A stretch of DNA of 44,632 bases, taken from assembly GCA_013140455.1 (NCBI GenBank), contig JABFSU010000103.1, positions 1 through 44,632 of the forward strand, read 5' to 3'. Under the pieces are notes generated by a model, which saw nothing but the letters and a program-made list of their open reading frames with translations, was not told the DNA's origin and did no database searches. Positions within the stretch are counted from its first letter, which is position 1. Each line of letters starts with the position of its first letter. The position numbers were made by a program, and so were the translations under genes. Positions 23,727-42,932 of this stretch are shown here, one piece after another. The DNA comes from Nitrospira sp. (GTDB lineage Bacteria; Nitrospirota; Nitrospiria; Nitrospirales; Nitrospiraceae).

Positions 23727-23830
23727 CCCCTCAAAAGTAGGCAGTAGTCTTCGCATGCCTAATTGGGTAGCTCGCTGCGCAACAAGGCGTAGTCGCACGA
23801 CTGCGTCCAGAAGACGAAGGCCTGTATACC
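23727..23830 (+). ncRNA. structured leader-like element, copy A
   Basis: It shares with copy B (38558-38676) the 14-mer CCCCTCAAAAGTAG, the 15-mer CAACAAGGCGTAGTC, then N3, CGACTG, exactly 20 variable nt, and GTATACC. After the first block a hairpin forms with stem TAGGCA/TGCCTA. The second block starts a 10-bp hairpin, GGCGTAGTCG with CGACTGCGTC. Sequence between the blocks differs between copies while the pairing is kept, as in a riboswitch-like or other structured RNA. It lies about 235 nt upstream of the 2228-aa protein gene. A dispersed REP-like DNA repeat is the alternative. Confidence 0.6.
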
Positions 23831-23889
23831 TGTGCACACATGAGTAACCATCAGCAGGTAGTCACAGAAAGAAAAATATAGGTGAGCGA

Positions 23890-24003
23890 ATGGATGGTCA
23901 ACGAAACACAGAACGAGATTCAGTTGGAACGGCAGCCATCACAGAGTTGCGGGAGCTTATCGCCAAATCATCATCAATCTATGCGGGACATGAGGGACCG
24001 TGA
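23890..24003 (+). CDS. possible 37-aa small protein
   Basis: ATG 23890 is preceded by AGGTGAG and opens a 37-codon frame ending at TGA 24003. The product is hydrophilic with one short helical stretch (AAITELRELIAK). It lies between the leader-like element and the giant gene. No family is recognised, and chance is a fair explanation. Confidence 0.25.
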   Translation: MDGQRNTERDSVGTAAITELRELIAKSSSIYAGHEGP

Positions 24004-24064
24004 CGAGTTATGCGGGTTGGAGTTATGACGGAAGTCACTTACAGGAACTGAGGAGGGAGTGGTC

Positions 24065-27000
24065 ATGGAAGGGATGAGCCGAATGTTTGGCAGAGTTGCA
24101 ACGCAGCTGGGAATGGCGGCCGCGTGTATATGCGCCCTGGCAGCGCCGGCAAGCGTATCAGCGCAGACGCCGCCGACCGTCACCGTCACGGTGCAAGGCA
24201 GCGACGGACTGCCTATCGCGCCGGGCTTCCGCTGGTTGCTGCAGGAAAATCTGATGTATGACGCCAAGCAAGGGGTTTCCTGCGATCCAACAGGAGCCGA
24301 CGCGAACCGCCCCTGCGTTCCCGGCACGAACATCTCCGCCAACACCCTCTCGACCAATTTCCATAAGAGTTACATGCCTCCCGTGGACAAGGGTGATGTG
24401 GCGGGCAGCCAGGCGATCATTACGATTCCCGATGCGACCAAGAAATATTTCGTGTCCGTGCTGCCGCATTGTGCGAACCCCGCGTCGGCGCCGGAGAATT
24501 GTTATTCGATCAACGGCGGTGCGATTGCGCCGGGACAGACCGCGCTTACTGTGGTGGTGCCGAAACAACGGATTCCCACCGCGCAGATTTTCGTCATGGC
24601 GTTCGAGGACCTTGCGCCCATTAACAACGCGTTCGATCAAGGTGAGCGCGGATTGGGCGGATTCAATGTCGCGATTGCTGATGCCGGTGGCCAGATTTTG
24701 ACCGACGCAATGGGCAATCCGCTGGGCACGACCTATCAAGCCGACGGGCTCACTCCCGACTTGCTTGGCAACGGCATTGTCACCACGATGACACAGGGAG
24801 AGATCGATTTCGCCCTCGCCAACAATGGCGCAGGAAATCCCTACAATCTTAAAGTCGGCGAGGCCCTGATCAAGGGACTCGCGCCGGGGAAATACGGCAT
24901 CACGATCACGCCGGTGGTGGGATTGAATTATCAGCAGACCGCGACCATCGAAGGCACGAAGACGATCGATGCCTGGGTCCATGCCAATGAACCCCGCTAC
25001 ATGTTCGAACTCGGCCCGGCCGGGCACCATGCCGAATTCGGTTATGTACAGCCAGGCTATGTGCTGACCCCTCAGGGCGCCCCGTTGCTCGGCCAGGGGA
25101 GCAGCAGTATTACCGGGCGCATCGTTAATATGCACATGTCCCGGCCCCCCGACTATACGATGCACAAGGGCCATCCGTTGCTAGGCTGCTGGATCGGTTT
25201 GAATGAGTTTCAATTGGGCCGCGCGGGCAGAGGCCTCTATGTCGCGGCCTGCAACTCGGACAGCACCTTCACCATTCCCAACGTGCCGGACGGCTCGTAC
25301 CAACTTGCGGTATGGGATCAATTTCTCGATAACATTTTTGCGCTCGTGCCGGTGACCGTAACCGGCGGAAATCTGGATCTTGGCGATGTGGGCGTGTTCC
25401 GCTGGTTCGGAGCTCAGGATCACTATGTCTTTTTCGATGCGAATGGCGACGGGGTCCGGCAGGAGACAGAAGTCGGCATCCGTGACCAGGTGGTGAACCT
25501 GCGGTTCCGCGACGGCACGATTTACCAGTCGTTTCCGACTGATACGACGGGCTATGTGCCGTTCGACGAAATCTTCCCCTTCTTCAGCTGGCAAGTGGCC
25601 GAAGTCGATTTTGCCCGCTTCAAGGCGACAGGTGTTACGGTCACCGTCGACGCCGGCGGACCGGTTGTTCCAGGCGAAAAACTGACGCCACAAATTCAAG
25701 CCGACGGGGTTTCCACGACAAGAACCGAAACCGGGCCGGTGTTGCTCCAAGGCTTTCAATCATTCCTCGGCACGACGAACAAGTTTGAATGGGGCAAGAA
25801 GAATTATTCGCCCGGCGAGAATGGTGGAATCAGCGGCATCGTCCAATACGCCACCACGCGCGCGGAGGATGATCCTCGCTACGCCGCAGCTGAAACCTGG
25901 GAGCCGGGCATTCCCCGTGTTCCCGTATTCCTCTACCGGGATCTGAACGGCGACAAGGTCATTGACGACGTGAACGGCAACGGGGCCATGGATCTGGCCG
26001 ATGCGGATCACTACCCCTTCGGCTGGTCGAACGGCGGAGAGATGGGGCCGGAGGACGTGAAGCGAAATGATATTGGCGGTATTGCGGGTATCAACGATCC
26101 GACGTTCGTCTTCAATGCCGGCGATGCGGTGCAGATCGCCACGACCGACAGTTGGGACGACAACAATCCGACCGGCTGCCCTGGAAATCCAGCCGATCCC
26201 TTCCATCAGAACGGCAAATGCTACGATGGTCTGCGGAATTTCAATCAGGCGCGCCCGGCCGTGTTCGATGGCGGCTATGCTTTTACCTCCTATGTGCCGA
26301 CGGGACGGTCGTCCGGTGGAACCGCGGTGACACTCGTGGCAGGTCAGTACATCGTCGAAGCCCTCACTCCCAAAGGCTATGAATACCAGAAAGAAGAAGA
26401 CAAGAACGTGGACTTCGGCAATGCGTCGATCGTCAGCCCTCTGGCGCTGCCGCCGGCGTGCGTGGGTACGCGAAATGCGCCGGTCCCCGCGAATCTGACG
26501 TTGTTTCCGGGCGTCGCTGCGCCGAATGCAGGCATCAACACACCGCTGTGCGACCGGAAGGTCGTGCTGCTCACCAGCGGCCAGAATGCCGCGGCGAACT
26601 TTTTCATGTTCACCGAGGTGCCGCTGGCGGCGCAGGTGACCGGGTTCGTCTTGAACGATCTGGCCAACGAGTTCGATCCGCTTTCGCCGAACTTCAGCGA
26701 AAAGGCGGCGCCGTCCTGGTTGCCCATTTCCTTCCGCGACTGGACAGGGAAGGAAGTGGTCCGGGTCTATACCGATCAATTCGGCACCTACAATGCGATG
26801 CTGCCCTCGACCTACACCATCAACGCGCCGACGCCGAGCGGCGTCTCGCCGCAGATGCTGCAGGCCTGCCTCAATAATCCAGGGCCGATCCAGGATCCGG
26901 TGTCGGGGCAGATGGTCATTGATCCGTTCTACAACAAGCATTACGGCCAGACCTGTTGGACGTTGCACTACCTGCCGGGCACCACAACGTACGCCGATAC

Positions 27001-30000
27001 GCCCATCGTGCAGATTGCCGCGTTTGTCGGCAACGGCAACGTGCAGACCGATTGCGACTGCGCGGATAAGACGCCGAAGGTCTTCTCCGTCACCGGACCG
27101 GGCAACGTCGGTCCATTCATTGCCGATGCTGATACCAGCCGCCAGCTCACGATTACGTCGGTTGGATCGGTTCAGGTGCCGGATCCTAACGCGATCAGAA
27201 CCGAAGGGAATTTTGGCGCAGTCATCACGCGGGACTTCGGGTTCGGGGACGCTCCCGGTCAAGTGACGATCGGCGGGATTCCCTTAGAGAACATCGCCTG
27301 GTCGAACAACGTGATTACTGCCGATGTCCCATTGGCGGCTCAGACCGGCCAGTTGGTCGTGACACGGGCGGACAGCGGACTATCGTCCCTCAACTCCGTC
27401 ACCGTCACAGTCGGCAATGCCGGCATTCCGGCTGTCCGTATGGTCGCGTCGGGTCAGTCGATTCAAGCGCAACTTGATCTCGCGAATCCGGGTGACCTGA
27501 TTCTGGTGCAACCCGGTACCTATTACGAAATGCTCATTATGACCAAGCCGGTGAAGCTGCAAGGCTGGGGCGCGGGTTCGACCCACATCATTGCCAGCCA
27601 ATCCTTGGCCACACAGTTGCAGACGTGGCGGGAGAAGATGAACAGCCTGGTGAACTGTCCGCTCACGCCGGCCGGAAAAATTGCCTTGTTGCCTGGTCAG
27701 GCGAACAATACTCAAGGGGCGACGGGTGGCACCTGTGGCTACCTCGCCGGCACTGGCCTGTTCCAGATCGATGAAGGCGCGGGGGTTTTTATTGGGGCGC
27801 AAGACGGCATCTTCACCAGCGGCCAGCATGGCCGCGTGGATGGGTTCTCGGTCGCCGGATCGGTGACGTCGCCCGGCATCGTGGTGAACGGCTATGCCCG
27901 ATTCGTTGAAATCAGCAACAACCAGGTGGCCAACAATCAAGGCACCTACGGCGGCGGCATCCGGCTGGGCGATCCGACCTTGACGGTCAGTGCGCAGAAC
28001 GACCATGCCACGATCCATCACAATCACATCGTGCAGAACGGCAGCTTGTTTGCGCCGGGCGCGGGTGTGGCCCTCTATGCCGGCAGCGATCACTATCAAC
28101 TGATGGACAACTACGTCTGCGGCAACTTCGCAACGGAAGACGGCGGCGGCGTGGCGCATCTCGGCTTGAGCCCCAACGGGCTGATCGCGCGGAACAAGAT
28201 CGTCTTCAACCAGACCTTCGTGCAATCGGTCGGCGGATTAGGCGGATCGGGCGCGGGCGGCGGACTGCTCGTGGCGGGCCGCGCGCCGGCCGTCGGTGGG
28301 CCGCTCCAGATCAGCGAGGGCGCGGGATCCGTAACCATCGCGTCGAACCTCATTCAGGGCAACAACGCGGGCACCAGCGACGGCGCGGGTGTCATGCTTC
28401 GGAGCATCAACGGGTTGGACGTGTTGGTCTCGCCGACCAACAACTCGACCTGGTACGAAGTGAATCTCTTCAACAATATCATCGTGAACAATGTGGCCGG
28501 ACTGTCCGGTGGCGGCATCGCCATGCAAGACGCCGCCAAGGTCAACATGATTAACAACACTGTCGCGCACAACGACAGTACGGCGACGGCGGGCATGGCG
28601 TTCAGCGCCGGCGTGCCGAACGTGTCGAATCCACAACCGGCCGGGGTCGTGTCCAGCCGCTTCAGCGCCGGGCTCTGCCAGGCGTTCCAAGAGGCGGCGG
28701 GATGTGCGCGCTACTCCGATCCCGTGATGGAGAACAACATCGTCTTGAATAACCGCTCGATGTTCTGGGAAGTGGACACCCAAGTGAATCCGCCGAAAGG
28801 CCAGTTGAAGACCGCCGGCGTGCATGATCTAGGAGTGCTGCCCGAAGGGGCGGGATTCCTCTTGCATCCGATGAACGGCATCTTAACCGACGGCACCATC
28901 GGGTACGATGTGTCGAATCAACTGGTGATCGATGTGATGAAGGCCGACGGGACTTCGGATGTCTTTGTGAATCCCTACTTCAATGCGCCGCCCGGATTCG
29001 GGTCTGTGCAGCCGGACGGCACCATCTTACAACTCGAATTTACCACCACGCTGGCGAGCGCCGCAGCGCTGGATGAAGGCGGCAATTTCATCGACGTGCA
29101 CTACGGTCCGCTCACGCCCGGCGGCAACTATCGTCTCGTGGCCAACGCTCCGGCCATCGATGCCGGGAACGATGCGGCCTTGATCGTGTCCGGTCTGTTG
29201 GCGGCCGACTATGACGGCCAGCCGAGGCCGACCGACGGCAACAGCGACGGCACGGCTCGCACCGATATCGGCGCGGACGAAACGTCCGGCGCGACGGGCA
29301 ACCAGGCCCCGACGATCACATCGAGCCCCGTGACCACGGCGACGGCCTTGCAGCTCTATGTCTATCAAGTGCTGGCCTCGGATCCGAATGCAGGCGACCT
29401 CCTTTCCTACAACCTGCCGACCGCTCCCGCAGGCATGACGATCAGTGCGACCGGGCTCGTGCAATGGACGCCGACGCAGGCTCAAGTGGGACTGAACGCG
29501 GTGATCGTGCGGGTGCAGGATCAGGGCGGAGCCTTTATCACGCAGTCCTACTCGGTGACGGTTGATCCACCAAAACCGGCCGTCGTCGGGTTCACCTTGC
29601 GCGATGCCAACGACGATGTGGTGATCGGTCCATTGACCAACGCAGCCATCGTCGATCTGAGAGATCTCTGCGGAGACTGTCAGGTCAACGTGGAAGCAAC
29701 CGTGAGCAGCCCGGCTCCCGGAGCTGTCAGAAGCGTCGTGTTGACCTTGAGTGGCGCGACGAACAGGACGCGGACTGATAACACGAATCCCTATACGATG
29801 CCGGGCAACAACGGCGGAGATTTCGCAGGGATGACCTTGAACCCCGGTCCGCATACCTTGACGGCCACGCCCTTTAGCGGCCTCAACGGGACTGGTACGC
29901 CGGGGATTCCGTTAACGGTGAATTTTACCGTCGCAGGACCGCCGGTCATCACTTCGCAGCCGGTGACGGCGGCCATGGTGGCTGAACCCTATGTCTACGA

Positions 30001-30751
30001 TTTGGAGGCAATGACGCTCACTGGGGCGCCGCTGACCTACAGCTTACCGGTTCGTCCGGCGGGTATGACGATCAACGCTACGACTGGTCTCATCAGCTGG
30101 ACGCCGGCGGCCAATCAGCGCGGCAATCGCAACGTGACCGTGCGGGTCACTGACGCGATGGGCCGGGTGACCAATCAACCCTACACCATCGTGGTCGCAA
30201 CAGGGACACCGGTGGTCAGTTCCGCGCCTGTGACGACGGCTATGGTGGCAGAACTCTATACGTACGATGTGAACGCGACCGCGGCAGTGCCGTCCGGCGA
30301 TCCGCTGGCCTACAGTCTGGCCACGTTCCCGGCGGGTATGACGATCAACGCCAGCACCGGTCTCATCAGCTGGACGCCGGCTGCCAATCAGACCGGCAAC
30401 CGCAACGTGAGAGTGCGGGTGACCGATGCCAAGGGTCGGTTCACGGAGCAGTTGTTCACCATTGCGGTGGCTTCTGGAGCGCCGGTGATCAATTCGACGC
30501 CGGTGACGACGGCAAAGGTTGCTACTCCATATACCTACGATGTGCAGGCCGCGGCGGCTGTGCCGAGTGGGGACCCCTTGACCTACAGCCTGGTGACCCG
30601 CCCGGTAGGTATGACGATCAACGCCACAACCGGCCTCATCAGTTGGACGCCGACCGCCGCGCAAGCGGGCAGTCGCAACGTGAGGGTACGGGTGACTGAT
30701 GCCAAGGGTCGGATTGTCGAGCAGCCATATACCATCTTGGTGACGTTCTAG
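24065..30751 (+). CDS. giant secreted protein: SdrD-B-like domains, parallel beta-helix, Ig-like repeats
   Basis: ATG 24065 has AGGAGG 8 nt upstream (2228 aa). A signal peptide ends ASVSAQ near residue 34. The N-terminal 1000 residues are beta-rich, with Cna/SdrD-B-like and calcium-loop segments (DANGDGVRQETE; DLNGDKVIDDVNGNGAMD). An IPT/TIG-like domain (around 1055-1115) precedes a right-handed beta-helix (about 1120-1690) with Asn- and Gly-rich turns such as NNQGTYGGGIRLGD. Four Ig-like (He_PIG type) repeats close the protein from about residue 1747, the last two about 91 residues apart. No sortase or lipid anchor is visible. It is probably a surface or matrix protein, perhaps exported by the type II system encoded downstream. 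The beta-helix could also bind or cut polysaccharide. Confidence 0.85.
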   Translation: MEGMSRMFGRVATQLGMAAACICALAAPASVSAQTPPTVTVTVQGSDGLPIAPGFRWLLQENLMYDAKQGVSCDPTGADANRPCVPGTNISANTLSTNFHKSYMPPVDKGDVAGSQAIITIPDATKKYFVSVLPHCANPASAPENCYSINGGAIAPGQTALTVVVPKQRIPTAQIFVMAFEDLAPINNAFDQGERGLGGFNVAIADAGGQILTDAMGNPLGTTYQADGLTPDLLGNGIVTTMTQGEIDFALANNGAGNPYNLKVGEALIKGLAPGKYGITITPVVGLNYQQTATIEGTKTIDAWVHANEPRYMFELGPAGHHAEFGYVQPGYVLTPQGAPLLGQGSSSITGRIVNMHMSRPPDYTMHKGHPLLGCWIGLNEFQLGRAGRGLYVAACNSDSTFTIPNVPDGSYQLAVWDQFLDNIFALVPVTVTGGNLDLGDVGVFRWFGAQDHYVFFDANGDGVRQETEVGIRDQVVNLRFRDGTIYQSFPTDTTGYVPFDEIFPFFSWQVAEVDFARFKATGVTVTVDAGGPVVPGEKLTPQIQADGVSTTRTETGPVLLQGFQSFLGTTNKFEWGKKNYSPGENGGISGIVQYATTRAEDDPRYAAAETWEPGIPRVPVFLYRDLNGDKVIDDVNGNGAMDLADADHYPFGWSNGGEMGPEDVKRNDIGGIAGINDPTFVFNAGDAVQIATTDSWDDNNPTGCPGNPADPFHQNGKCYDGLRNFNQARPAVFDGGYAFTSYVPTGRSSGGTAVTLVAGQYIVEALTPKGYEYQKEEDKNVDFGNASIVSPLALPPACVGTRNAPVPANLTLFPGVAAPNAGINTPLCDRKVVLLTSGQNAAANFFMFTEVPLAAQVTGFVLNDLANEFDPLSPNFSEKAAPSWLPISFRDWTGKEVVRVYTDQFGTYNAMLPSTYTINAPTPSGVSPQMLQACLNNPGPIQDPVSGQMVIDPFYNKHYGQTCWTLHYLPGTTTYADTPIVQIAAFVGNGNVQTDCDCADKTPKVFSVTGPGNVGPFIADADTSRQLTITSVGSVQVPDPNAIRTEGNFGAVITRDFGFGDAPGQVTIGGIPLENIAWSNNVITADVPLAAQTGQLVVTRADSGLSSLNSVTVTVGNAGIPAVRMVASGQSIQAQLDLANPGDLILVQPGTYYEMLIMTKPVKLQGWGAGSTHIIASQSLATQLQTWREKMNSLVNCPLTPAGKIALLPGQANNTQGATGGTCGYLAGTGLFQIDEGAGVFIGAQDGIFTSGQHGRVDGFSVAGSVTSPGIVVNGYARFVEISNNQVANNQGTYGGGIRLGDPTLTVSAQNDHATIHHNHIVQNGSLFAPGAGVALYAGSDHYQLMDNYVCGNFATEDGGGVAHLGLSPNGLIARNKIVFNQTFVQSVGGLGGSGAGGGLLVAGRAPAVGGPLQISEGAGSVTIASNLIQGNNAGTSDGAGVMLRSINGLDVLVSPTNNSTWYEVNLFNNIIVNNVAGLSGGGIAMQDAAKVNMINNTVAHNDSTATAGMAFSAGVPNVSNPQPAGVVSSRFSAGLCQAFQEAAGCARYSDPVMENNIVLNNRSMFWEVDTQVNPPKGQLKTAGVHDLGVLPEGAGFLLHPMNGILTDGTIGYDVSNQLVIDVMKADGTSDVFVNPYFNAPPGFGSVQPDGTILQLEFTTTLASAAALDEGGNFIDVHYGPLTPGGNYRLVANAPAIDAGNDAALIVSGLLAADYDGQPRPTDGNSDGTARTDIGADETSGATGNQAPTITSSPVTTATALQLYVYQVLASDPNAGDLLSYNLPTAPAGMTISATGLVQWTPTQAQVGLNAVIVRVQDQGGAFITQSYSVTVDPPKPAVVGFTLRDANDDVVIGPLTNAAIVDLRDLCGDCQVNVEATVSSPAPGAVRSVVLTLSGATNRTRTDNTNPYTMPGNNGGDFAGMTLNPGPHTLTATPFSGLNGTGTPGIPLTVNFTVAGPPVITSQPVTAAMVAEPYVYDLEAMTLTGAPLTYSLPVRPAGMTINATTGLISWTPAANQRGNRNVTVRVTDAMGRVTNQPYTIVVATGTPVVSSAPVTTAMVAELYTYDVNATAAVPSGDPLAYSLATFPAGMTINASTGLISWTPAANQTGNRNVRVRVTDAKGRFTEQLFTIAVASGAPVINSTPVTTAKVATPYTYDVQAAAAVPSGDPLTYSLVTRPVGMTINATTGLISWTPTAAQAGSRNVRVRVTDAKGRIVEQPYTILVTF
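30205..30751 (+). repeat. tandem Ig-like coding repeats of about 273 bp
   Basis: The last two Ig-like units, each starting with a P-V-(V/I)-x-S-x-PVTTA pattern and ending VRVRVTDAKGR, repeat with a 273-bp spacing. A third, more distant copy begins near 29938. They form a C-terminal stalk of the giant protein. Confidence 0.75.
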
Positions 30752-30760
30752 TTGAAACAG

Positions 30761-30790
30761 CCCGGTTCCGCGATGAGTCGTGGAACCGGG
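30761..30790 (+). terminator. hairpin after the giant protein gene
   Basis: CCCGGTTCC (30761-30769) pairs with GGAACCGGG (30782-30790) around a 12-nt loop, 9 nt after the stop. Only a short TTT follows, so it may be a weak terminator or an mRNA-protecting hairpin between the giant gene and the oxidase genes. Confidence 0.6.
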
Positions 30791-30812
30791 GGCTTTGAAG
30801 AAGGAGACGCAC

Positions 30813-32039
30813 ATGTCATTTTCAAAACGGTATCTACTCACGCTCTTGATGACCGCTGGCCTCGGGCTGTCCGGCATGAATGCCGAGGCAATCGTGAATG
30901 TGCAATGTCCCGGCGATACGAATGGAGATGGGGTGAGCGATACCCCGGGCATCGAGTGCCGGCATCTCTCCGGAGGCGACGGCTTCATACGCATGGCCGA
31001 CGGTCGTGCGGGGCTCTACATCTTTGGCTTTTCAAATCTGACCGGCAGACCGATCGCGGAGTCTCTGAGTTGGGGCACCCTCGCGGCGCAATTTGCGGCG
31101 CCGACGCTGTACTTCAAGGAGGGCGACAAAGTCTACCTGACGCTCTCCAACGCCGGAACCGTCATGCGGCCCGATTTGTTCGATCCGCATAGCGTCCACT
31201 GGCATGGCTTTCCGAACGCGGGGTCGGTCTACGACGGCGAGCCGGAAGCCAGTATCAGCATCAATCCCAGTTCGAGCCTGACCTACTACTATGAACCGGT
31301 CGAGGTCGGGACCTTCATGTACCACTGCCACGTCGAAGCGGCAGAGCACATGCAGATGGGTATGCTCGGGAACTTGTATGTGTTGCCGAAACAGAATGAC
31401 TTGCCGAACGGGACCCTGCTCGGGACGCACCAGCATCAAACCGGAAATAAATATGTGTACAACGACGGTGACGGGTCGACCCGCTATGACGTCGAGTTCC
31501 CGCTTCAGATCGGCTCGATGGACCCGGTCTTTCACGATCTTCACCTCGGTGTTCAGCCGCTGCCCTTTGCCAACTTGCTCGATACCTACCCGATGTTGAA
31601 CGGCCGTGGGTACCCGGATACGGTCAATAATAGTCCGACCGGATTGCCGGCGCCTGAGGAAAAGGTCGCCGCCAACTATCGAAGCGCCAACGTGACGTCG
31701 AACCCGCAGTCGTCACTGATTCAAGCTCAAGCCGGGCAGAAGATTCTGCTCCGGATCAGTAACCTCAATATCACGACGTTCTATAGTCTCTCCGCGATGG
31801 GGTTGCCCATGAAGGTGGTCGGTACCGGCGCGCATATCCTCAAGGGACCGAACGGACTCCCGGCCTACTACGACACGAATTCCGTGACGCTGGGCGGGGG
31901 GGAGGCCATGGATGTGATCATCGATACGACCGGCGTTCCGGCAGGCACCTATTTCCTCTACAGCACGAACCTGAATTATCTCAGCAATAACACCGAAGAT
32001 TTCGGCGGCATGATGACCGAGATCCACATTACTCTGTAG
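30813..32039 (+). CDS. two-domain multicopper oxidase with intact type 1 motif
   Basis: The start is ATG 30813, 5 nt after AAGGAGA (408 aa); the signal peptide ends MNAEA. The N-terminal cupredoxin domain has His126-x-x-His129-x-His131-Gly (PHSVHWHGF) and His171-Cys172-His173 followed by His179 and Met184 (HCHVEAAEHMQMGM). These are the complete type 1 ligand set plus trinuclear-centre His. The second domain (about residues 210-408) lacks the HCH motif but has HQH and HDLH segments. This layout recalls small two-domain oxidases that complete their trinuclear site between subunits. The substrate (metal ion, phenolic or other) cannot be read from sequence. It is the first of three oxidase-fold genes. 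Confidence 0.88.
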   Translation: MSFSKRYLLTLLMTAGLGLSGMNAEAIVNVQCPGDTNGDGVSDTPGIECRHLSGGDGFIRMADGRAGLYIFGFSNLTGRPIAESLSWGTLAAQFAAPTLYFKEGDKVYLTLSNAGTVMRPDLFDPHSVHWHGFPNAGSVYDGEPEASISINPSSSLTYYYEPVEVGTFMYHCHVEAAEHMQMGMLGNLYVLPKQNDLPNGTLLGTHQHQTGNKYVYNDGDGSTRYDVEFPLQIGSMDPVFHDLHLGVQPLPFANLLDTYPMLNGRGYPDTVNNSPTGLPAPEEKVAANYRSANVTSNPQSSLIQAQAGQKILLRISNLNITTFYSLSAMGLPMKVVGTGAHILKGPNGLPAYYDTNSVTLGGGEAMDVIIDTTGVPAGTYFLYSTNLNYLSNNTEDFGGMMTEIHITL

Positions 32040-32074
32040 GCCTGATGGACCTGGATACACGAAGGAGCACGACG

Positions 32075-33400
32075 ATGAAGCTGGCAACCATGACACGAGG
32101 GATTGTGACGTTCTTCACCGCGCTTGCAGTCCTGCCGGGCCTTGTCCCGGATCGGGCGTTGGCAACCATCGACGGCGTGAATGGCCCTGCATTCACTCTG
32201 GTCGCCACGACGGGCCTGATTTCCACCGGCGACGGCCAGAGTCTGTTGGGTTGGGGCTACGCGAACGGGAGTGGACTGATGCAGTACCCTGGCCCGACGA
32301 TGATCGTGAATCAGGGCGACACCGTGACCGTGACGTTGACGAATGAGCTGGCGGTGCCTGTCTCCATTGTCTTTCCAGGGCAGACGAACGTGACCGCGAC
32401 GGGCGGCGCGGCCGGCACTCTGACACAGGAAGCGCCGGCGGCTCCCTGCGTCGCCGACTGTGCCGTGACCTATACGTTTACCGCGAGTCAGCCGGGGACC
32501 TACCTCTATCACAGCGGGACCCAGCAGGATCTGGAAGTCGAAATGGGTCTGGTCGGCGCCTTGATCGTGCGGCCCAATGCCGCAGATCCCTTGCACCAAG
32601 CCTATGAACACCCGAGCAGCGCGTTCGAGCGCGAATACCTGTTTCTCCTCACGGAAATGGACCCCAATATTCACCGGCTCGTCGATTTCGGGATGACGGC
32701 CCAGGTTGATTTCACCACGTATCACCCGACCCTCTGGTTCATCAATGGACGCAATGCGCCGGACACCATGCTGGGCGCGGGGAGCCAAGCTCCCTGGCTG
32801 GCCTATCAGCCCTATAACAGCATGCCGCAGATCCATCCGGGCGAGCGGGCTTTGATGCGGCTGATCGGCGCGGGACGAGATCTCCATCCCTTCCATCACC
32901 ATGGGAATAATGCCTGGATTGTTGCGCGTGATGGGCGGCTGTTGCAGAGCACGCCCGGTGCTGGGGCCGATCTGGCCGAATCCAATTTCACCATCACGAT
33001 GGTACCGGGAGGAACGGTTGATGCGCTGTGGACTTGGACCGGCGAAAAATTGGGATGGGACATCTATGGCGACCCCAATCAATCTGCCACGACCCACAGC
33101 TGCAACAATCCGACCGGCTTTGACACGGTGACCCATGAATATTGTCCCGATCACGGAAAGGCGCTGCCGACCACGATGCCGGATCTCCTGAGCCTGACCT
33201 TTGGCGGCAACTGGAGCGGCAGCCCGTTCCTGGGACAGCTTGCTGCGTTGCCGCCTGGGCAGGGTGGCAATAACCCGACCGGGGCCTTTACGTTCATGTG
33301 GCATTCGCACACAGAACGCGAGATGACCAACGATGACATTTTCCCCGGCGGCATGATGACGATGATGATGGTCGAGCATCCGAGCGTGCAGATTCCGTAA
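32075..33400 (+). CDS. multicopper-oxidase-fold protein lacking the type 1 cysteine
   Basis: The start is ATG 32075 after GAAGGAG (441 aa) with an export signal ending DRALA. Two cupredoxin domains are visible. Domain 1 has VFPGQ where HxHG is expected, and YLYHSGT where HxH is expected. Domain 2 keeps His271-x-x-His274-x-His276-Gly (HPFHHHG) but has His410-Ser-His412 in place of His-Cys-His, so a normal type 1 copper cannot form. A run of Met residues (GGMMTMMMV) follows. It may bind copper differently or serve as a partner subunit of the intact oxidase encoded 35 nt upstream. Function is unknown. Confidence 0.85.
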   Translation: MKLATMTRGIVTFFTALAVLPGLVPDRALATIDGVNGPAFTLVATTGLISTGDGQSLLGWGYANGSGLMQYPGPTMIVNQGDTVTVTLTNELAVPVSIVFPGQTNVTATGGAAGTLTQEAPAAPCVADCAVTYTFTASQPGTYLYHSGTQQDLEVEMGLVGALIVRPNAADPLHQAYEHPSSAFEREYLFLLTEMDPNIHRLVDFGMTAQVDFTTYHPTLWFINGRNAPDTMLGAGSQAPWLAYQPYNSMPQIHPGERALMRLIGAGRDLHPFHHHGNNAWIVARDGRLLQSTPGAGADLAESNFTITMVPGGTVDALWTWTGEKLGWDIYGDPNQSATTHSCNNPTGFDTVTHEYCPDHGKALPTTMPDLLSLTFGGNWSGSPFLGQLAALPPGQGGNNPTGAFTFMWHSHTEREMTNDDIFPGGMMTMMMVEHPSVQIP

Positions 33401-33423
33401 ATGCCGCAGACTGGAGGAAGGCC

Positions 33424-33633
33424 ATGGAAGAGCGTGCGCCAGACCAGGCTGGTCGATCGGAGCCGATGTCTCCGGCTCAATCCCGGCAGGACTCTAAGAT
33501 GTCAGGCCTTGGGCCTGAACGTTGGCGGGCCAGGAAGCGGCCGTCAATCTATCTCGTATTTCCACCAGGCGTGGAAGGCAAGCGGAAGCGAACATTGCTC
33601 GGATTGGACGGCGATGAATCGCGCGAGGACTGA
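33424..33633 (+). CDS. 69-aa charged hypothetical protein
   Basis: An ideal GGAGG lies 6 nt before ATG 33424, and the frame stays open for 69 codons between two oxidase genes. The product is rich in Arg, Lys, Glu and Pro and has no signal peptide or membrane helix. A competing frame from ATG 33401 (93 codons, ending at 33682) overlaps it without a good Shine-Dalgarno. I do not recognise either product. Confidence 0.4.
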   Translation: MEERAPDQAGRSEPMSPAQSRQDSKMSGLGPERWRARKRPSIYLVFPPGVEGKRKRTLLGLDGDESRED

Positions 33634-33684
33634 GATGACAACAGGAATGACGGGTCTTCACATTACAACGCAGGAGTCATGACG

Positions 33685-36087
33685 ATGCGCACCCTACATC
33701 ATTTTCTGAGAGCTTGTTCATTGGCTGTCGTCGGGGTGGCTCTCGGCACCAGCCCCGTCTGGTCGGCGGAAGTCTGGCTCGAGGCTCGGCCACTGACTGG
33801 GTTGGAATATCCGGTGGGTATACCGTCGACAGTGCCGATGTGGGGGTACGCGTCCTGCGACTCCAGTTGGGTGTGCGGACCCGCCGCTGTCCCAGGGCCG
33901 CAGCTGGTCGTGCCGGCTGGTGAGACGAGCCTCACCATTCATTTGAAAAACAACTTGCCTGCTATCGGCCTCTCAGTGCCGAATATGACGTCGGTTGTGA
34001 TTCCCGGTCAGCGGGAAGACAACATGGTTCCCGTCATGTTTGATCCAATTGTGAGTCCGCACGGTGACGGCGTGTTACGAGCTCGGATGCGGTCGTTCAC
34101 CCACGAAACCACTCAGGGCCAAATCGGCGACTATGTCTGGTCGAACCTCAAGCCCGGCACCTATCTCTATCACAGTGGAACTCACGCGCAGGTGCAGGTC
34201 CAGATGGGACTGTATGGCAGCATCAAAGCCGATGCGGTGACGGGACAAGCCTACGCGGGACAGGCCTACGTCGGAGAGGCTACCCTGCTCTTCAGCGAAA
34301 TTGATCCGGCGCTCCATACAGAAGTGGCGAACGGAACATACGGTACCGCCGGTCATTCGACCAGCACCATCAACTATCAGCCGAAATACTTCCTCATCAA
34401 CGGCGCGCCCTATTCGGCCTTGACCGCGCCGATCGCGGCTGGTCAGGCAGGCCAGCGGAATCTCCTGCGGCTGCTGAACGCCGGGGTGGAGTCGCATGTG
34501 GCGGCGTTGCTGGGCGGGCATTTCCAGGTGATTGCCGAAGACGGCAATCCGCTCGCGCATCCGCGCGAGCAGTATGAGACGTTGCTGGCTGCCGCCAAGA
34601 CGATGGATGCGATCTGGGTGCCGGCGGTGAACGGCACCTATTCGATCCACGACCGCCGGAACCGACAGGGCATGTTGGCGAAATTGGAGGTCAGTGCGGG
34701 CGCAGCGGTGGCGCCCACCGCAGTCAGCGATGCCTATTCGACGCCGGTGAATATCCCATTGAACGTGGCGGCTCGCGGTGTCTTGTTGAACGATCAGAAT
34801 GCCCTGACGGCCACCGCTGTCCTCGTGACTGGTCCCGCAAGCGGCACGCTGGTCCTCAATGCCGACGGCTCGTTTGTCTATACCCCGGCGCCGGCCTTCT
34901 TCGGTCAAGTCTCTTTTACCTATAAGGCGAACAACGGGACGGACAGCAATGTCGCAACTGTCACCATCACGGTGAACCGTCCGCCGGTGACTGTGAACGA
35001 TGCAGCAACGACCCAACCGAACACAGCGGTGACCGTGAATGTCTTGGCGAACGACAGCGATCCGGAGAGCCAGCCGCTGACGATTACGTCGGTGACGCAG
35101 GGAACCAACGGGGCCGTGACCTTTACTGCGACGGGTGTGGTCTATACCCCGAACGCGGCCTTTACAGGAGTCGATACCTTTACCTACACGATCAGCGACG
35201 GGCAGCTACCGGTGCCTGGTACTGCGACTGGAACGGTGACGGTGACGGTGGTTGGGAATCTCGCGCCGACGGCCAATCCCGATCTCAGGACCATGGCGGA
35301 GGACGGTACGTTAATTATCTCGGTGCTTGCAAACGACACCGATCCGGAGAACCAGCCGCTGACGATCACAGCGGTGACCCAAGGGGCGCACGGTACAGTG
35401 ACGAACAACGGCACGACCGTGACCTATAAGCCCGCGCTGAACTTCAACGGCGGCGATTCGTTCACCTATACGATCAGCGACGGACAAGCACCGACCCCGG
35501 GTACAGCCACCGGCATGGTCACCATGACTGTCACACCGGTGAACGACGCGCCGGTGGCCGTGGCCAACACCTATGGGGTGAACAAACAGACCTCGTTCAC
35601 TGTTCCTGCATTCGGCGTGCTGGCGAACGACAGCGATGTGGACGGGAATACGCTGACAGCCGTTCAACGGTCCAACCCGTCAGGCACGGTGAGTCTCAAT
35701 GCAGACGGGTCGTTCACCTATACAACGACGGCGGGCTACGTCGGCACGCGGGTCTTCAAGTATCGCGCAAACGACGGTCTGCTGAACAGCGCCGACGTCA
35801 ATGTGACGTTGGTCAAGGATCTGACGGTGGTGCGCTTTGACCGTGCGGCTAACGGCGATTGGCTTATTCGCGGCAAGAGCACCAAGCCGAATACGACTGT
35901 GACAATCTATCCCGGCGCGACGGCGACGGGAACTCCGCTGACGACGACGACGGGGCAGACGTCTGTCACGGTCGGAGGCAACGGCAGTTGGACCTTCAGG
36001 ACAGCGGCCGGGTCCCTCTCGTCCGGACAGCCGATCAGCGCCAAGTCATCGACCGGCGCGGAAGTGATCGACGTGCCGGTGCCGTAA
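33685..36087 (+). CDS. cupredoxin/multicopper-oxidase-like protein with cadherin-like and Ig-like repeats
   Basis: ATG 33685 is preferred (AGGAG 8 nt upstream; ATG 33679 is too close), giving 800 aa with a signal peptide ending VWSAE. Residues 30-335 form two cupredoxin-like domains related to the preceding gene product: the same PGQ segment, and His163 in YLYHSGTHAQVQVQMGLYG. The second domain has lost HPxHxH and HCH entirely (SIHDRRNRQGM remains). Residues about 342-712 are four cadherin/VCBS-like repeats with LANDSDPE-type calcium loops, and the C-terminus is an Ig-like domain. Copper oxidase activity is unlikely; a scaffold or adhesive subunit is more plausible. Confidence 0.82.
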   Translation: MRTLHHFLRACSLAVVGVALGTSPVWSAEVWLEARPLTGLEYPVGIPSTVPMWGYASCDSSWVCGPAAVPGPQLVVPAGETSLTIHLKNNLPAIGLSVPNMTSVVIPGQREDNMVPVMFDPIVSPHGDGVLRARMRSFTHETTQGQIGDYVWSNLKPGTYLYHSGTHAQVQVQMGLYGSIKADAVTGQAYAGQAYVGEATLLFSEIDPALHTEVANGTYGTAGHSTSTINYQPKYFLINGAPYSALTAPIAAGQAGQRNLLRLLNAGVESHVAALLGGHFQVIAEDGNPLAHPREQYETLLAAAKTMDAIWVPAVNGTYSIHDRRNRQGMLAKLEVSAGAAVAPTAVSDAYSTPVNIPLNVAARGVLLNDQNALTATAVLVTGPASGTLVLNADGSFVYTPAPAFFGQVSFTYKANNGTDSNVATVTITVNRPPVTVNDAATTQPNTAVTVNVLANDSDPESQPLTITSVTQGTNGAVTFTATGVVYTPNAAFTGVDTFTYTISDGQLPVPGTATGTVTVTVVGNLAPTANPDLRTMAEDGTLIISVLANDTDPENQPLTITAVTQGAHGTVTNNGTTVTYKPALNFNGGDSFTYTISDGQAPTPGTATGMVTMTVTPVNDAPVAVANTYGVNKQTSFTVPAFGVLANDSDVDGNTLTAVQRSNPSGTVSLNADGSFTYTTTAGYVGTRVFKYRANDGLLNSADVNVTLVKDLTVVRFDRAANGDWLIRGKSTKPNTTVTIYPGATATGTPLTTTTGQTSVTVGGNGSWTFRTAAGSLSSGQPISAKSSTGAEVIDVPVP

Positions 36088-36090
36088 AGG

Positions 36091-36111
36091 AATGCCGGGA
36101 TACCCGGCATT
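36091..36111 (+). terminator. hairpin terminator after the third oxidase-fold gene
   Basis: AATGCCGGG (36091-36099) and CCCGGCATT (36103-36111) form a perfect 9-bp stem with a 3-nt loop, 3 nt after the stop codon. No T-run follows. Confidence 0.6.
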
Positions 36112-36120
36112 CACCTGAGC

Positions 36121-36159
36121 TCCGCAGCCTGTGGGACGGCCTCCCGCGCAGGCTGCGGA
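36121..36159 (+). terminator. second, longer hairpin
   Basis: TCCGCAGCCTG (36121-36131) pairs with CAGGCTGCGGA (36149-36159), with an inner GGGA/TCCC pairing. Together with the hairpin at 36091 it suggests a strong transcript boundary before the next gene. Confidence 0.55.
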
Positions 36160-36231
36160 CATCACGGTGGCAAGCAGCTTGGTGGGGTATCGAGGACAGG
36201 GTTTGATTCATCTCACAGCGGAGGGAGCACG

Positions 36232-36789
36232 ATGCACAGCGCGAAGATCGGTCAACGGCTCGGATTCGGCGTTGCGATGACGATGGTGTGGGGCCTGGTT
36301 GTCGCTGGGCCAGCTCTGGCGGAGCCGATTGAGGCGAACCCGACCGAAGCCGCGCTTACCCAGGTCGCAGTGGCGGCGCCGGCTCTGGCCCAGCATGGGC
36401 ATCATAGTCCGGAATCGTTCGCAACGCATTCCATTACGGAGGCGCAGCGACTGGCGATGGAGCAACAATATGGTGTCAGCATTCTGGGCGTCAGGGTCAC
36501 GGCTGCCGGGCATATGCTCGACTTCCGCTATCGTGTGCTGGACACAACAAAAGCCGGGCGGCTGATTCGTCCCAAGATGGGACTGGCCCTCGTCGATCAG
36601 GCCACGAAAGCCGAGATGCCAGTGCCCGTGATGGATAAAGTGGGGGCCTTGAAGCAGACGCGCAGCCATCTGTACGCCGACCGGACCTACTCCGTCTTAT
36701 TCGCGAACCGCGGCGGGGTCATTAAGGCCGGCAGCAAGGTCTCGATTCAATTCGGCGATCTCACGTTGGACAACCTCATCGTGGAGTAA
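36232..36789 (+). CDS. small secreted His-containing protein, unrecognised family
   Basis: ATG 36232 follows GGAGGGAG (185 aa). A signal peptide ends near ALAEP, and the mature N-terminus has a His cluster (AQHGHHSPESFATHS) that could bind metal. The rest is a compact beta domain with HMLDFRYRVLD and DKVGALKQTR segments. It lies after the oxidase-fold genes and 3 nt before the protease gene, so it is probably made together with the protease. Metal binding is inferred only from the His cluster. Confidence 0.75.
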   Translation: MHSAKIGQRLGFGVAMTMVWGLVVAGPALAEPIEANPTEAALTQVAVAAPALAQHGHHSPESFATHSITEAQRLAMEQQYGVSILGVRVTAAGHMLDFRYRVLDTTKAGRLIRPKMGLALVDQATKAEMPVPVMDKVGALKQTRSHLYADRTYSVLFANRGGVIKAGSKVSIQFGDLTLDNLIVE

Positions 36790-36792
36790 CCG

Positions 36793-38370
36793 GTGAAACC
36801 GATCCGGCGCATCGCGGGATTGCTGACAGGGACGCTGCTCTGGTCTCTGCTCGCCGCGTCGGTTCACGCCGCCGTCATCGAGCCGGAACTGAACCTCTTG
36901 CTACAGGCACGAGGCGCCGGTGAAGCGATTCCCGTCATTGTGACGTTTCCGCGCGTGGTCGATCCCTGGTCTCTCCAGGAGACCGATCGGCGGCAGCGCC
37001 GCTCCCGGCTTCTTCAGGCGTTGCAACAGGAGGCGCAGGGATTTCCCGCGCAGGTTCACCGGTACGCCGAGGAACACGGCGCGACACAGATCAAATCCTT
37101 GTGGGCGGCTCATACGCTGGCGCTCTCGGGTGAGCCGTCGCTGATTCGTGATCTTGCGGCGCTCTCCGGCGTCGAGTCGATTCGACAGGATCGGATCATG
37201 CGGGTATTTGCCGGCTCGCAGGGGCATCACTCGATACAGCTTGGGCGGAACGGACTCCCGTCGGTGCGGAAGCCGAGGCATGATCCGGATCGCACCGGCT
37301 CGGTGTCGGCATTGGGACCTCACGAGACCGGTTCCCAGGCCTCTGCTGTTTCTGCTGCTCCCACCTCATCGCCGGAATGGAACCTGACCGCAGTCAAAGG
37401 CCCGGATCTCTGGGCCTTGGGATTTACCGGGCAGGGCGTGGTCGTGGCAAGTCTGGACACCGGTGTGGACGCGCAGCATCCGGATTTGTCGGCGCAATAT
37501 CGCGGGGGTACCAATAGCTGGTTCGACCCGCATGGCGAGCATGCGACTCCGGCCGATCTGGACGGGCATGGCACCCATGCGATGAGTCTGGCCGTCGGCC
37601 GCGTGAGCGGCGGGACGGCGATCGGGATGGCGCCCGATGCCCAGTGGATCACCGCCAAGCTGTTCAACGATGCCGGATTTTCCAGGGAAAGTCTCATGCA
37701 TCAGAGCTTACAGTGGGCGCTGGATCCGGATGGCGATGTCGCGACGGACGATGCGCCGGATGTCGTCATTCTTTCGTGGGCCGTCGCCACGGTGAATGTG
37801 TGCAACCGGGCGTTTCAAGACGAGTTAGATGCGCTGCGGGCGTCCGGCATTGCCGTTGTGCTGTCCGCGGGGAACTCGGGGGCCGGTGCGTCAACGAGTA
37901 TCAGTCCGGCCAATAATCCTGGGCAGCTTTCCGTCGGCTCAGTGAACCAGCAGCTCACGTTGTCACCGTTCAGCAGCAGGGGGCCCTCGGCCTGTGACGG
38001 AGGGATGTTCCCGGCGGTGGTGGCCCCTGGCGAACAGGTGCGGGTGGCGGATCGGTCGTTCGGCGGGATGCTGAATTATGCCACGGTGACGGGCACCTCA
38101 TTCGCCGCGCCACATGTGGCGGGAGCGCTGGCGTTGCTGAAGAGCGCGGTGCCGGCCGCGCCGCTTCCGGTTTTAGAGTCGGCGTTACAGGCGACCGCGG
38201 TTCCCTTGGCGCCCCAAGACGATTCGGCGCAGCCGCGCCCATGGCTGATCGACACATTGGCCGCCTATCGCGCCGCCTTGATCGGATCCGGTTCCGAAGG
38301 CCCCCTCGATCGCGAGGGGCCGAGGGCCGGAGGCGATGCGACCGGCCTCAGACAGGGAGTCCTGCGATGA
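36793..38370 (+). CDS. subtilisin-like (S8) serine protease with propeptide
   Basis: The start is GTG 36793, with GGAG inside the end of the previous gene (525 aa). After a signal peptide, residues about 28-140 form an I9-type inhibitory propeptide. The catalytic triad is intact: Asp222 (SLDTGVD), His259 (DGHGTHA) and Ser436 (TGTSFAAPHVAG), with oxyanion Asn361 (SAGNSGAG). It should mature outside the cytoplasm and could process the secreted proteins encoded upstream. The C-terminal tail past residue 495 is Gly- and Arg-rich and unrecognised. Confidence 0.92.
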   Translation: MKPIRRIAGLLTGTLLWSLLAASVHAAVIEPELNLLLQARGAGEAIPVIVTFPRVVDPWSLQETDRRQRRSRLLQALQQEAQGFPAQVHRYAEEHGATQIKSLWAAHTLALSGEPSLIRDLAALSGVESIRQDRIMRVFAGSQGHHSIQLGRNGLPSVRKPRHDPDRTGSVSALGPHETGSQASAVSAAPTSSPEWNLTAVKGPDLWALGFTGQGVVVASLDTGVDAQHPDLSAQYRGGTNSWFDPHGEHATPADLDGHGTHAMSLAVGRVSGGTAIGMAPDAQWITAKLFNDAGFSRESLMHQSLQWALDPDGDVATDDAPDVVILSWAVATVNVCNRAFQDELDALRASGIAVVLSAGNSGAGASTSISPANNPGQLSVGSVNQQLTLSPFSSRGPSACDGGMFPAVVAPGEQVRVADRSFGGMLNYATVTGTSFAAPHVAGALALLKSAVPAAPLPVLESALQATAVPLAPQDDSAQPRPWLIDTLAAYRAALIGSGSEGPLDREGPRAGGDATGLRQGVLR

Positions 38371-38483
38371 ATGTCCACGATGAGCCGATGGTGGTGGTGA
38401 TGATCGGATTCCTGTTTCTTTTATGGATTGCGCTGGCGATCGCTTTGTGGCGCACCGTCAGTTTGGCGCTGGTGGCTGGATGA
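38367..38483 (+). CDS. 38-aa single-span membrane protein
   Basis: ATG 38367 overlaps the protease stop (ATGA) and has AGGGAG 7 nt upstream. The 38-residue product is mostly one membrane helix (VVVMIGFLFLLWIALAIALW) between short polar ends. Translational coupling to the protease suggests a real gene. Function is unknown. Confidence 0.6.
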   Translation: MNVHDEPMVVVMIGFLFLLWIALAIALWRTVSLALVAG

Positions 38484-38557
38484 CTACGATGGCCTGGTAC
38501 GGGGGAGAGCTGCGACTGCCTTCGGGGTTGCCGTGTCGTTCTCTGGCGTCGGTCAAG

Positions 38558-38676
38558 CCCCTCAAAAGTAGCGCGTACCTTCGTAGTGCGTACCATTCGG
38601 CGTGTGGTTTGGGTGGGTCTTCCCTCAACAAGGCGTAGTCCTGCGACTGTCGCGGGGGGTGGTCGTCGCGTATACC
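38558..38676 (+). ncRNA. structured leader-like element, copy B
   Basis: Same blocks as copy A: CCCCTCAAAAGTAG at 38558-38571, CAACAAGGCGTAGTC at 38626-38640, CGACTG 3 nt later, and GTATACC after exactly 20 nt. The first hairpin is TAGCGC with GTGC-G-TA around CTTCG; the second is GCGTAGTC with GACTG-T-CGC. The spacer between the two long blocks is 54 nt, against 39 nt in copy A. It ends about 97 nt before gspG, so it should lie in the leader of the secretion operon. Confidence 0.6.
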
Positions 38677-38772
38677 GGTTACGACAGGAGTGTATAGGGG
38701 TGGCAAGAGCCCTGGCTGCGTGCAGCGCAGGTCCCGGCCGAGGATGATGAGGCGTTGAGTAGGAGGAATGGC

Positions 38773-39216
38773 ATGATGAGCGACAAGAAAGGCCTAGGCG
38801 GTCGGTGTGGCAAGGGATCGGAGGGATTTACCTTGCTGGAGTTGCTGGTGGTGATGGTCATTATCGGATTGCTGGCGTCATTTGTCGGGCCGCGCTACTT
38901 CTCGCAAATCGGGAAGTCGGAGGTCAAGTCGGCCAAGGCGCAGCTGGATGCGCTGGAGAAGGCGCTCGATCAATACCGGCTCGATCTGGGCAAGTATCCG
39001 TCTACGGAACAGGGGCTGGTCGCGCTGGTGTCCAAGCCTGCGAATGAAGCGAAATGGGATGGTCCCTACTTGAAGAAAACCGTGCCGCCAGATCCTTGGG
39101 GGAGTCCCTACAGCTACAAATTCCCCGGAGAGCATAGTGAGTTCGACCTCTGGTCGTTCGGCCGGGACGGACAGCCTGGGGGCACTGCTGAAAACGAAGA
39201 TATCAAGAACTGGTAA
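38773..39216 (+). CDS. gspG: type II secretion major pseudopilin GspG
   Basis: ATG 38773 follows GGAGG by 6 nt (147 aa). The prepilin cleavage motif is visible at Gly18-Phe19 (SEGFTLLELLVV), followed by the hydrophobic stalk helix. The C-terminal DPWGSPYSYKFPGEHSEFDL and FGRDGQPGG segments are typical of GspG, including calcium-loop residues. It is the main building block of the periplasmic pseudopilus and the first gene after leader element B. Confidence 0.95.
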   Translation: MMSDKKGLGGRCGKGSEGFTLLELLVVMVIIGLLASFVGPRYFSQIGKSEVKSAKAQLDALEKALDQYRLDLGKYPSTEQGLVALVSKPANEAKWDGPYLKKTVPPDPWGSPYSYKFPGEHSEFDLWSFGRDGQPGGTAENEDIKNW

Positions 39217-39230
39217 CGGGGTATCGCGCC

Positions 39231-40420
39231 ATGCGGTTTGAAGTCAGAGCCTTTCACTACGCCCATCCCGGCATCGTGGCGCTTCATGTCGAAGCCATCA
39301 CGCCGGAGGAGGCCCGGTCGCAAGCCGAGGAACAGGGCTATCAGGTGCTGCGTGTGCAGACCGGCGGATTGGCGCGCGCCTTCGCGTTCACACGAGCGCA
39401 ACCGTTTCCGGTCGTGTTGTTCAGCCAGGAACTGGTGGCGCTGTTGCGCGCGGGGTTGTCCTTGATGGAATCCCTCGAAACTCTGGCGGAGAAGGAACGT
39501 CATCCCGATGTCAGCCGGGTGCTCCAGGGTTTGCTCACCAAGTTGCGTGAGGGGCAGACGCTTTCCGCCGCCCTCGAGCGGTTTCCTTCGAGCTTCCCGT
39601 CGCTCTACGTGGCGACGGTGCGGGCCAGTGAACGCACCGGGGACGTCGCTGAGGCTCTGACCCGCTACGTCGTGTATCACGGCCAGTTGGACAGTGTCCG
39701 GAAGAAGCTGGTCAGCGCGTCGATTTATCCGCTGGTCCTGCTGGGAGTGGGTGGTCTCGTGATGCTGTTCCTTCTGCTCTATGTGGTGCCGAAGTTCAGC
39801 CGTCTCTACGAGGATGTCCGGGGCGAGCTTCCCCTGATGTCTCAGCTGCTCCTGGAGTGGGGACGGTTGCTTGAACGGCATGGGTCGGAAGTCATGGTCG
39901 GGATCGCCGTTAGCCTGCTGGCGGTGATCTATGCCGCGACCCGCCGATCGGTACGGGACTGGGTCACTGACCGAGTCCGCGCCCTCCCGGCGCTGCGCGA
40001 CCGGTTTCTGGTCTACGACCTGGCGCGGTTCTATCGCACGCTCGGGATGCTGCTGCGTGGCGGCACTCCGGCCGTCCAGGCGCTCGGCATGACGACGAAT
40101 CTCTTGCCGCTGTCGTTACGAACCAAGTTGACTCTGGCCACCGGAGCCATTCGGGAAGGCCAATCGTTTTCCATGTCGATGGAACGCTATGACCTGACGA
40201 CGCCGGTGGCGCTGCGGATGCTGCGGGTCGGCGAACGCAGCGGCCAGATGGGCGACATGATGGAGCGCATCGCCGGTTTCTACGATGAGGAGATTGCGCG
40301 GTGGGTCGATTGGATGAGCCGCCTGATCGAGCCCGTCTTGATGACGGTCATCGGGGTCGTCATCGGCACGATTGTGGTGTTGATGTATTTCCCAATTTTT
40401 GAATTGGCCGGGAGTCTTCA

Positions 40421-40424
<4 letters not shown>
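39231..40424 (+). CDS. gspF: type II secretion inner-membrane platform protein GspF
   Basis: The 397-aa protein has the paired GspF/PilC domains (about residues 65-190 and 270-390) with three membrane helices (LVLLGVGGLVMLFLLLYVV, VMVGIAVSLLAVIY, and a C-terminal MTVIGVVIGTIVVLMYFPIF). It anchors the assembly ATPase GspE to the membrane. It lies 14 nt after gspG and overlaps gspE by ATGA. Confidence 0.93.
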
Positions 40425-42116
<1,692 letters not shown>

Positions 42117-42136
<20 letters not shown>

Positions 42137-42932
42137 ACAGGTGCAGGTGCTCGTGACTCCGGCCAGCCTCACCCTGGTGCGGTTCGGCAGAGGTCTCCGG
42201 CCTGCCGTGATCGGGAGCGCGACGGTCCCGGTGAGCGATCGCGGCGCCAAAGGGATGCCCAATTGGACCAGCGCCCTCGTCGCTCTTGCCCAGGTGCTGA
42301 CCGCGGAGGAGTGGCGTCACGGCGATCTCTCGATTGTCCTGTCCAACCATTTTATGCGGTATCAGGTGGTGCCGTGGCGGGATGAATTGCGTGACGAGTC
42401 CGAGTTGATCGGGTATGTCCGGCAGCTGATGAGCGGCGCCTATGGACGGCGATCAGCCGATTGGTCGGTCGAAATCAGCATCGACGGCGTGGGGCAGCCG
42501 TGTGTGGGCAGTGCGGTCGATATCCAGTTGATCCATGAGCTGCAGGCCATCGCCGCTCACCAAGGCAGACGGTTGGTCTCGGTGAGGCCGCTCTTGATGG
42601 AGGCGTTCAATTGGGCGAAGGCCTGGCTGAAGACGGCGTGCCAGTGGCTGGTGATCGTAGAAGACGGCATGATGTGCGCCGCGCTGGTCGGCCATGGGCG
42701 CTGGGTCGTGGTGAGAACGTGCCGAACGGGGTCTGATTGGCCAGCCGAACTCGTGGCCATGCTGGAGCGTGAACAATTCCTTGTTGATGAAGCGGAATCT
42801 GCGCAAACGGTCTTATTGCACGTGGTGAACGGGGAGTCGATGGAACTGCCGGCGAATCAATGGACCGTGCGGCACCTTCGGGCTGATCAACCCTCAAAGG
42901 CGAGCGCCTCGGTATTGTCATGCGTCCTTTAG
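42117..42932 (+). CDS. PilM/GspL-cytoplasmic-domain-like protein
   Basis: GTG 42117, 9 nt after GGAGG, overlaps the end of gspE (271 aa); a longer GTG start at 42090 has no Shine-Dalgarno. The sequence lacks signal peptide and membrane helix. Features such as LSIVLSNHFMRYQVVPW and the WLVIVEDGMMCAALV strand fit the actin-like fold shared by PilM and the cytoplasmic part of GspL. It probably links GspE to the PilN-like protein encoded next. The identification is by position and fold pattern rather than by strong motifs. Confidence 0.7.

Follow-up and report, generated by a model that had tools for sequence, protein, structure and literature searches.

A repeated operator-like element upstream of a giant exported protein and a type II secretion operon in Nitrospira, and a two-component system that may read it

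In an uncultured Nitrospira, two copies of a conserved intergenic element precede the gene of a giant exported protein and the first gene of a type II secretion operon. Relatives of the element stand before comparable genes in a second genus of the family, its internal geometry is conserved, and it is linked to an operon encoding a two-component system. Judged from sequence, the element is probably the operator and activator-dependent promoter through which this linked system acts. The window, by which we mean the whole stretch of 44,632 nucleotides that was analysed, belongs to the genome here called G000; G104 is a near-identical sister genome, the contig C3 of which aligns with the window in long pieces at 98.5-99.99% identity and matches record NEWQ02000011 of Nitrospira sp. 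CG24D.

Copy A (23727-23832, plus strand) lies upstream of the gene for the giant protein and was recognised both as a repeat and as a profile match (88.9 bits with R2); copy B (38558-38678, plus strand) lies upstream of gspG and reaches 82.1 bits with R2. Both begin with the same 14-mer, CCCCTCAAAAGTAG or block 1, at 23727-23740 in A and 38558-38571 in B; in the sister genus it has diverged yet can still be aligned. After a gap of 39 nt in A versus 54 nt in B comes the 15-mer CAACAAGGCGTAGTC (23780-23794 and 38626-38640), which in both copies is followed by 3 variable nucleotides, CGACTG, 20 variable nucleotides and GTATACC. Block 2 covers 23780-23803 in A, with the dyad GTAGTCGCACGACTG, and 38626-38649 in B, with the dyad GTAGTCCTGCGACTG. 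GTATACC occupies 23824-23830 and 38670-38676, and within it TATACC (23825-23830 and 38671-38676) is the proposed -10 hexamer. A preceding sequence-only reading of the window had pointed to the shared 14-mer, 15-mer, 6-mer and 7-mer and to the equal 3-nt and 20-nt spacings between differing spacer sequences; all of this is borne out. The two copies are genuine and well above chance. The two intergenic regions align locally with a score of 268, against a mean of 184 and a maximum of 253 in 500 dinucleotide shuffles, and the joined pattern has exactly two matches in the window's genome, none in 98 other sampled relatives and none in the reversed control.

The genes behind the copies are all on the plus strand. 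Copy A is followed by the gene of a giant exported Ig-domain protein of 2228 aa (24065-30751; Pfam He_PIG, Big_9 and others), and this in turn by three proteins with multicopper-oxidase domains (Pfam Cu-oxidase families) and a 93-aa ORF at 33401-33682, which together fill 30780-36087. Copy B precedes a type II secretion operon (38773-44157) of gspG, gspF and gspE (Pfam T2SSG, T2SSF and T2SSE) and three further ORFs that have no Pfam match. The Pfam assignments agree with what the sequence-only reading had said of both neighbours, the 2228-aa exported protein and gspG. In the leader of the giant gene, at 23880-24005, a 37-38 aa ORF starts from GGTGAGCGAATG, and a matching start opens such an ORF in the leader of the giant gene of G586 (L213), a genome of another genus; the amino-acid sequence of this ORF is not conserved between the two. 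Elsewhere in the window, a phage-type integrase gene (690-1760) adjoins a tRNA-Arg on the minus strand (1766-1842; together 690-1842), so the window may begin at or inside an integrated island. The multiheme cytochrome gene at 8631-12134 matches itself at the DNA level in steps of about 294 nt, and its repeat part gives many alignments against the sister genome. In G104 a second, hybrid histidine kinase with PAS, HisKA, HATPase and two receiver domains (L014:1980-5057) lies just past the secretion operon.

Searches with exact patterns and with patterns allowing three mismatches rose above the control level only in the window's species and the sister genome, and pattern and profile searches within the genus gave nothing convincing besides the latter. 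The multicopper oxidase at 32045-33400, traced across the phylum, pointed to G586, which belongs to another genus of the same family and holds a related cluster: identities are 73-77% for the main aligned parts of the giant protein, 77-86% for the three oxidases and 65% for a subtilase. There, a profile built from A and B finds a match with an E-value of 2.8e-7, about 240 nt 5' of the orthologous giant gene. The resulting three-sequence profile, run on 175 genomes of the family, found 11 strong copies in eight genomes from two Nitrospiraceae genera, namely two each in G000, G104 and G586 and one each in G777, G769, G766, G660 and G696, plus one weak copy, the second of G696. The remaining profile matches have E-values of 0.004-0.1 per genome, which is the chance level for 175 genomes. 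Viral contigs and plasmids yielded no matches to the element.

The single copies of the sister genus are located as copy A is, following a reductase and a Sel1 gene. In G769, G660 and G696 the next gene encodes a Cu-oxidase_2 domain protein of 812-852 aa; the gene behind the copy of G777 has a similar start and runs off the contig, and the G766 contig ends. The second copy of G586 stands before another Ig/YDG protein, which extends past the end of the retrieved stretch, and the weak copy of G696 a multicopper oxidase of 569 aa. Thus all readable downstream genes encode an exported giant Ig-like protein, a secreted multicopper oxidase or gspG. The last of these stands behind the element in the window's species only; gspG orthologs of other Nitrospira, about 80% identical, have a different upstream sequence, in which the element is absent. 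Clusters of a giant protein with two or three multicopper oxidases are also conserved in several other families of the Nitrospirota (L214-L226), where they lack the element; their regulation therefore probably differs.

Mean identity, 70% within the element, drops to 45-50% in the flanking 100 nt at each end, and the conserved part stops at GTATACC. Of eight copies measured, seven have 20 nt between CGACTG and GTATACC and the eighth has 19 nt. The centre of the dyad GTAGTYNNNCGACTG lies 28.5 bp upstream of TATACC in six of seven measured copies, copy A among them, and 27.5 bp in one, a count that leaves out G696, the value of which is a mis-hit on block 1. The word CGACT is present in all ten copies that were aligned for the pairing and word counts, at a nearly constant position, and its reverse AGTCG occurs at -40, -34 or -13 relative to TATACC in eight of the ten; the background for these words in the window is 0.19 per 108 nt. 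Such a distribution of words is expected of an array of regulator half-sites.

TATACC matches the sigma-70 -10 consensus TATAAT in four of six positions and stays below the threshold of the promoter scan, which found no -35 element in either leader. By eye, sigma-54, sigma-28 and ECF promoter patterns did not fit. A relaxed dyad-to-TATAC pattern gave an uninformative result in five genomes. A coding function of the 3' half was discarded, as in-frame stops lie upstream and the amino acids are not conserved.

The layout is familiar from promoters of NarL/FixJ-type regulators (receiver plus GerE domains), with which the element shares a nearby regulator of this kind, a HisKA_3 kinase, a dyadic site, repeated half-site words and a distance of about 28 bp to a -10-like hexamer. 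It differs in the genes that it precedes, which encode secreted copper oxidases, giant proteins and the components of a secretion operon, and in the word CGACT, which is unlike the NarL heptamer. The distance from dyad to hexamer also agrees with that of class II promoters, in which the CRP site precedes the -10 element by 29 bp when placed at -41.5, as in CC(-41.5), and by 28 bp at -40.5, as in CC(-40.5) (PMC9314961). CRP is, of course, a member of another regulator family, and in the element further blocks are conserved, some 60 bp ahead of the dyad as well as between the dyad and the -10 hexamer.

About 21 kb beyond copy B (G104:C3:25152-25970; G000:C87:21961-22776) a response regulator of the NarL/FixJ type, composed of receiver and GerE domains, opens an operon that continues with a secreted cupredoxin-like protein and a PAS histidine kinase. 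The kinase contains a HisKA_3 domain and matches the NarQ and NarX models best. No named NCBIfam equivalog, not even NarL, matches the regulator above its cut-off, and the similarity of the middle protein to cupredoxin and amicyanin is weak and below the curated cut-offs. Operon and element share a contig in all four species with sufficiently long contigs (G104, G769, G660 and G586), and it is on these four that the linkage rests. The orthologs in G769, G660 and G586 are 66-69% identical for the regulator, 65-66% for the kinase and 57-63% for the middle protein, which is only partial in G660; in G586 the regulator gene is divergent from the second element. A stretch of the recognition helix, RTVEKHRASLM, is invariant in the four regulators. 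The operon was absent from the compared regions around the element-less clusters of giant proteins and oxidases in other families, apart from a regulator-only match of 45% in L218, and likewise from those around element-less gspG loci of Nitrospira. In the window's genome the element was not found before the regulator's own gene.

From these data we infer the following sequence of events. An extracytoplasmic signal would cause the kinase to phosphorylate the linked response regulator, which would then bind block 2 as a class II activator, assisted by the neighbouring half-sites. The dyad, some 28 bp before the -10-like TATACC, would take the class II activator position, and transcription would start just after TATACC. 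The regulator, presumably acting as an activator rather than a repressor, would in this way turn on the giant protein together with the multicopper oxidases encoded downstream of it, as well as the type II secretion operon. The signal is perhaps related to copper or redox state, which is plausible given the cupredoxin-like middle protein and the predominance of copper oxidases among the targets. Since the readable targets are all giant proteins, multicopper oxidases or gspG, the sequences support a putative shared control of exported cargo and secretion machine for the window's lineage; it is from this one lineage, the window's species, that the case for cargo and machine together is drawn.

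The sequence-only reading had proposed such shared control too, in the form of an RNA switch or thermometer. A structured leader RNA, be it a riboswitch, a thermometer or a protein-binding leader transcribed before both genes, has some points in its favour. Like the riboswitches and RNA thermometers of Rfam, the element is repeated, conserved, intergenic and placed before functionally linked genes, and one stem can form: the 6-bp dyad hairpin pairs in all ten sequences (60/60 cells), and its three variable pairs change in a pair-preserving manner. Copy A also folds better than most shuffles (z -1.86). The pairs, however, change on one side only; three of the six are invariant and none is altered on both sides. 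The competing CGACU-AGUCG hairpin, paired in 86% of cells, shows no double changes either, RNAalifold returns a weak structure with one double-changed pair, and over all candidate helices the double changes stay within the range of column shuffles, which leaves no conserved structure beyond that of the shuffles. Copy B folds no better than its shuffles (z 0.37). Neither leader contains a terminator-like site, and the distance from TATACC, the end of the element, to the start codon varies from about 100 to 246 nt among the measured copies, so that a fixed link to the ribosome-binding site is lacking. Rfam gave no match, even at E <= 1. The hairpin described after GTAG falls on non-homologous positions in A and B, and that of B does not outdo its shuffles (fraction 0.15). 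For the second hairpin A gives a strong result (0.004), but B prefers a different local hairpin (0.11), and the base changes said to preserve pairing in it affect one side of the pairs only. Stems lacking covariation had been named beforehand as evidence against an RNA, and such stems are what the alignment holds; with only ten sequences the power is limited, and the absence of covariation lowers the RNA reading without eliminating it. We consider a structured leader unlikely. A lineage-specific class of RNA leaders of giant proteins, multicopper oxidases and the type II secretion operon, or an element serving both as DNA operator and as RNA, is likewise unlikely. Most probably, the sequence-only reading was right on shared control and wrong on RNA.

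The same layout of operator and promoter might also be read by a different regulator of the LuxR/NarL type, the linked system being merely a neighbour or controlling something else. G000 indeed encodes several other GerE-type proteins, and a similar word together with GTATACC is found before a PAS-LuxR gene in Methyloversatilis. Against this stands the linkage in all four species, which persists despite differing gene order, including a divergent arrangement; a different reader is, in our opinion, rather improbable. That a dispersed repeat or mobile DNA of the REP or MITE kind landed by chance before two genes could be imagined from the two copies in one genome and from the integrase and tRNA at the start of the window. 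Yet neither homologs scattered through intergenic DNA nor REP-type repeats beside a RAYT transposase, both named by the sequence-only reading as findings that would refute its proposal, were encountered: a genome with the element has only one or two copies, and they are associated with genes. Moreover, the blocks were kept while the spacers of A and B diverged, and an ortholog sits at the orthologous site in another genus. A chance insertion is thus hardly credible. The operator and promoter of the linked two-component system remain the preferred interpretation.

Among the loci compared, the best matches to the element outside the Nitrospiraceae are those of Methyloversatilis (L063, 323-386, and L068, L076 and L077). 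They combine GGCGTAGTTCTGCGACTG and GTATACC beside a GerE regulator, the PAS-LuxR protein, with a similar recognition helix (RTVEKIRAQLMQR versus RTVEKHRASLMSK). In contrast to the Nitrospira element, the spacer is 25 instead of 20, and the site lies between the regulator and thiolase/CoA-ligase genes. The profile scores are weak, 13-15 bits, and the four loci are orthologous and count as one event. The strict motif had two matches in 300 genomes of the Methyloversatilis order versus about 15 for the reversed control; lacking enrichment there, it is not a widespread regulon word. With the PAS-LuxR protein as query, only a different dyad was found, CGTAGTTCTACG in L191. We regard the similarity as a lead rather than as a test.

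Two-component operators of this type are already known; a limited literature search turned up neither this array nor its regulator nor its regulon. What emerges is a concrete and testable regulon of Nitrospira, in which one two-component system with a copper-protein-like partner may switch on secreted multicopper oxidases and giant extracellular proteins and, in the window's species, also the secretion machine itself. With the operator sequence and the profile, the regulon can be traced in new genomes and its signal guessed. Its value would lie in giving access to the way in which these bacteria regulate their extracellular copper enzymes and the exporter of these.
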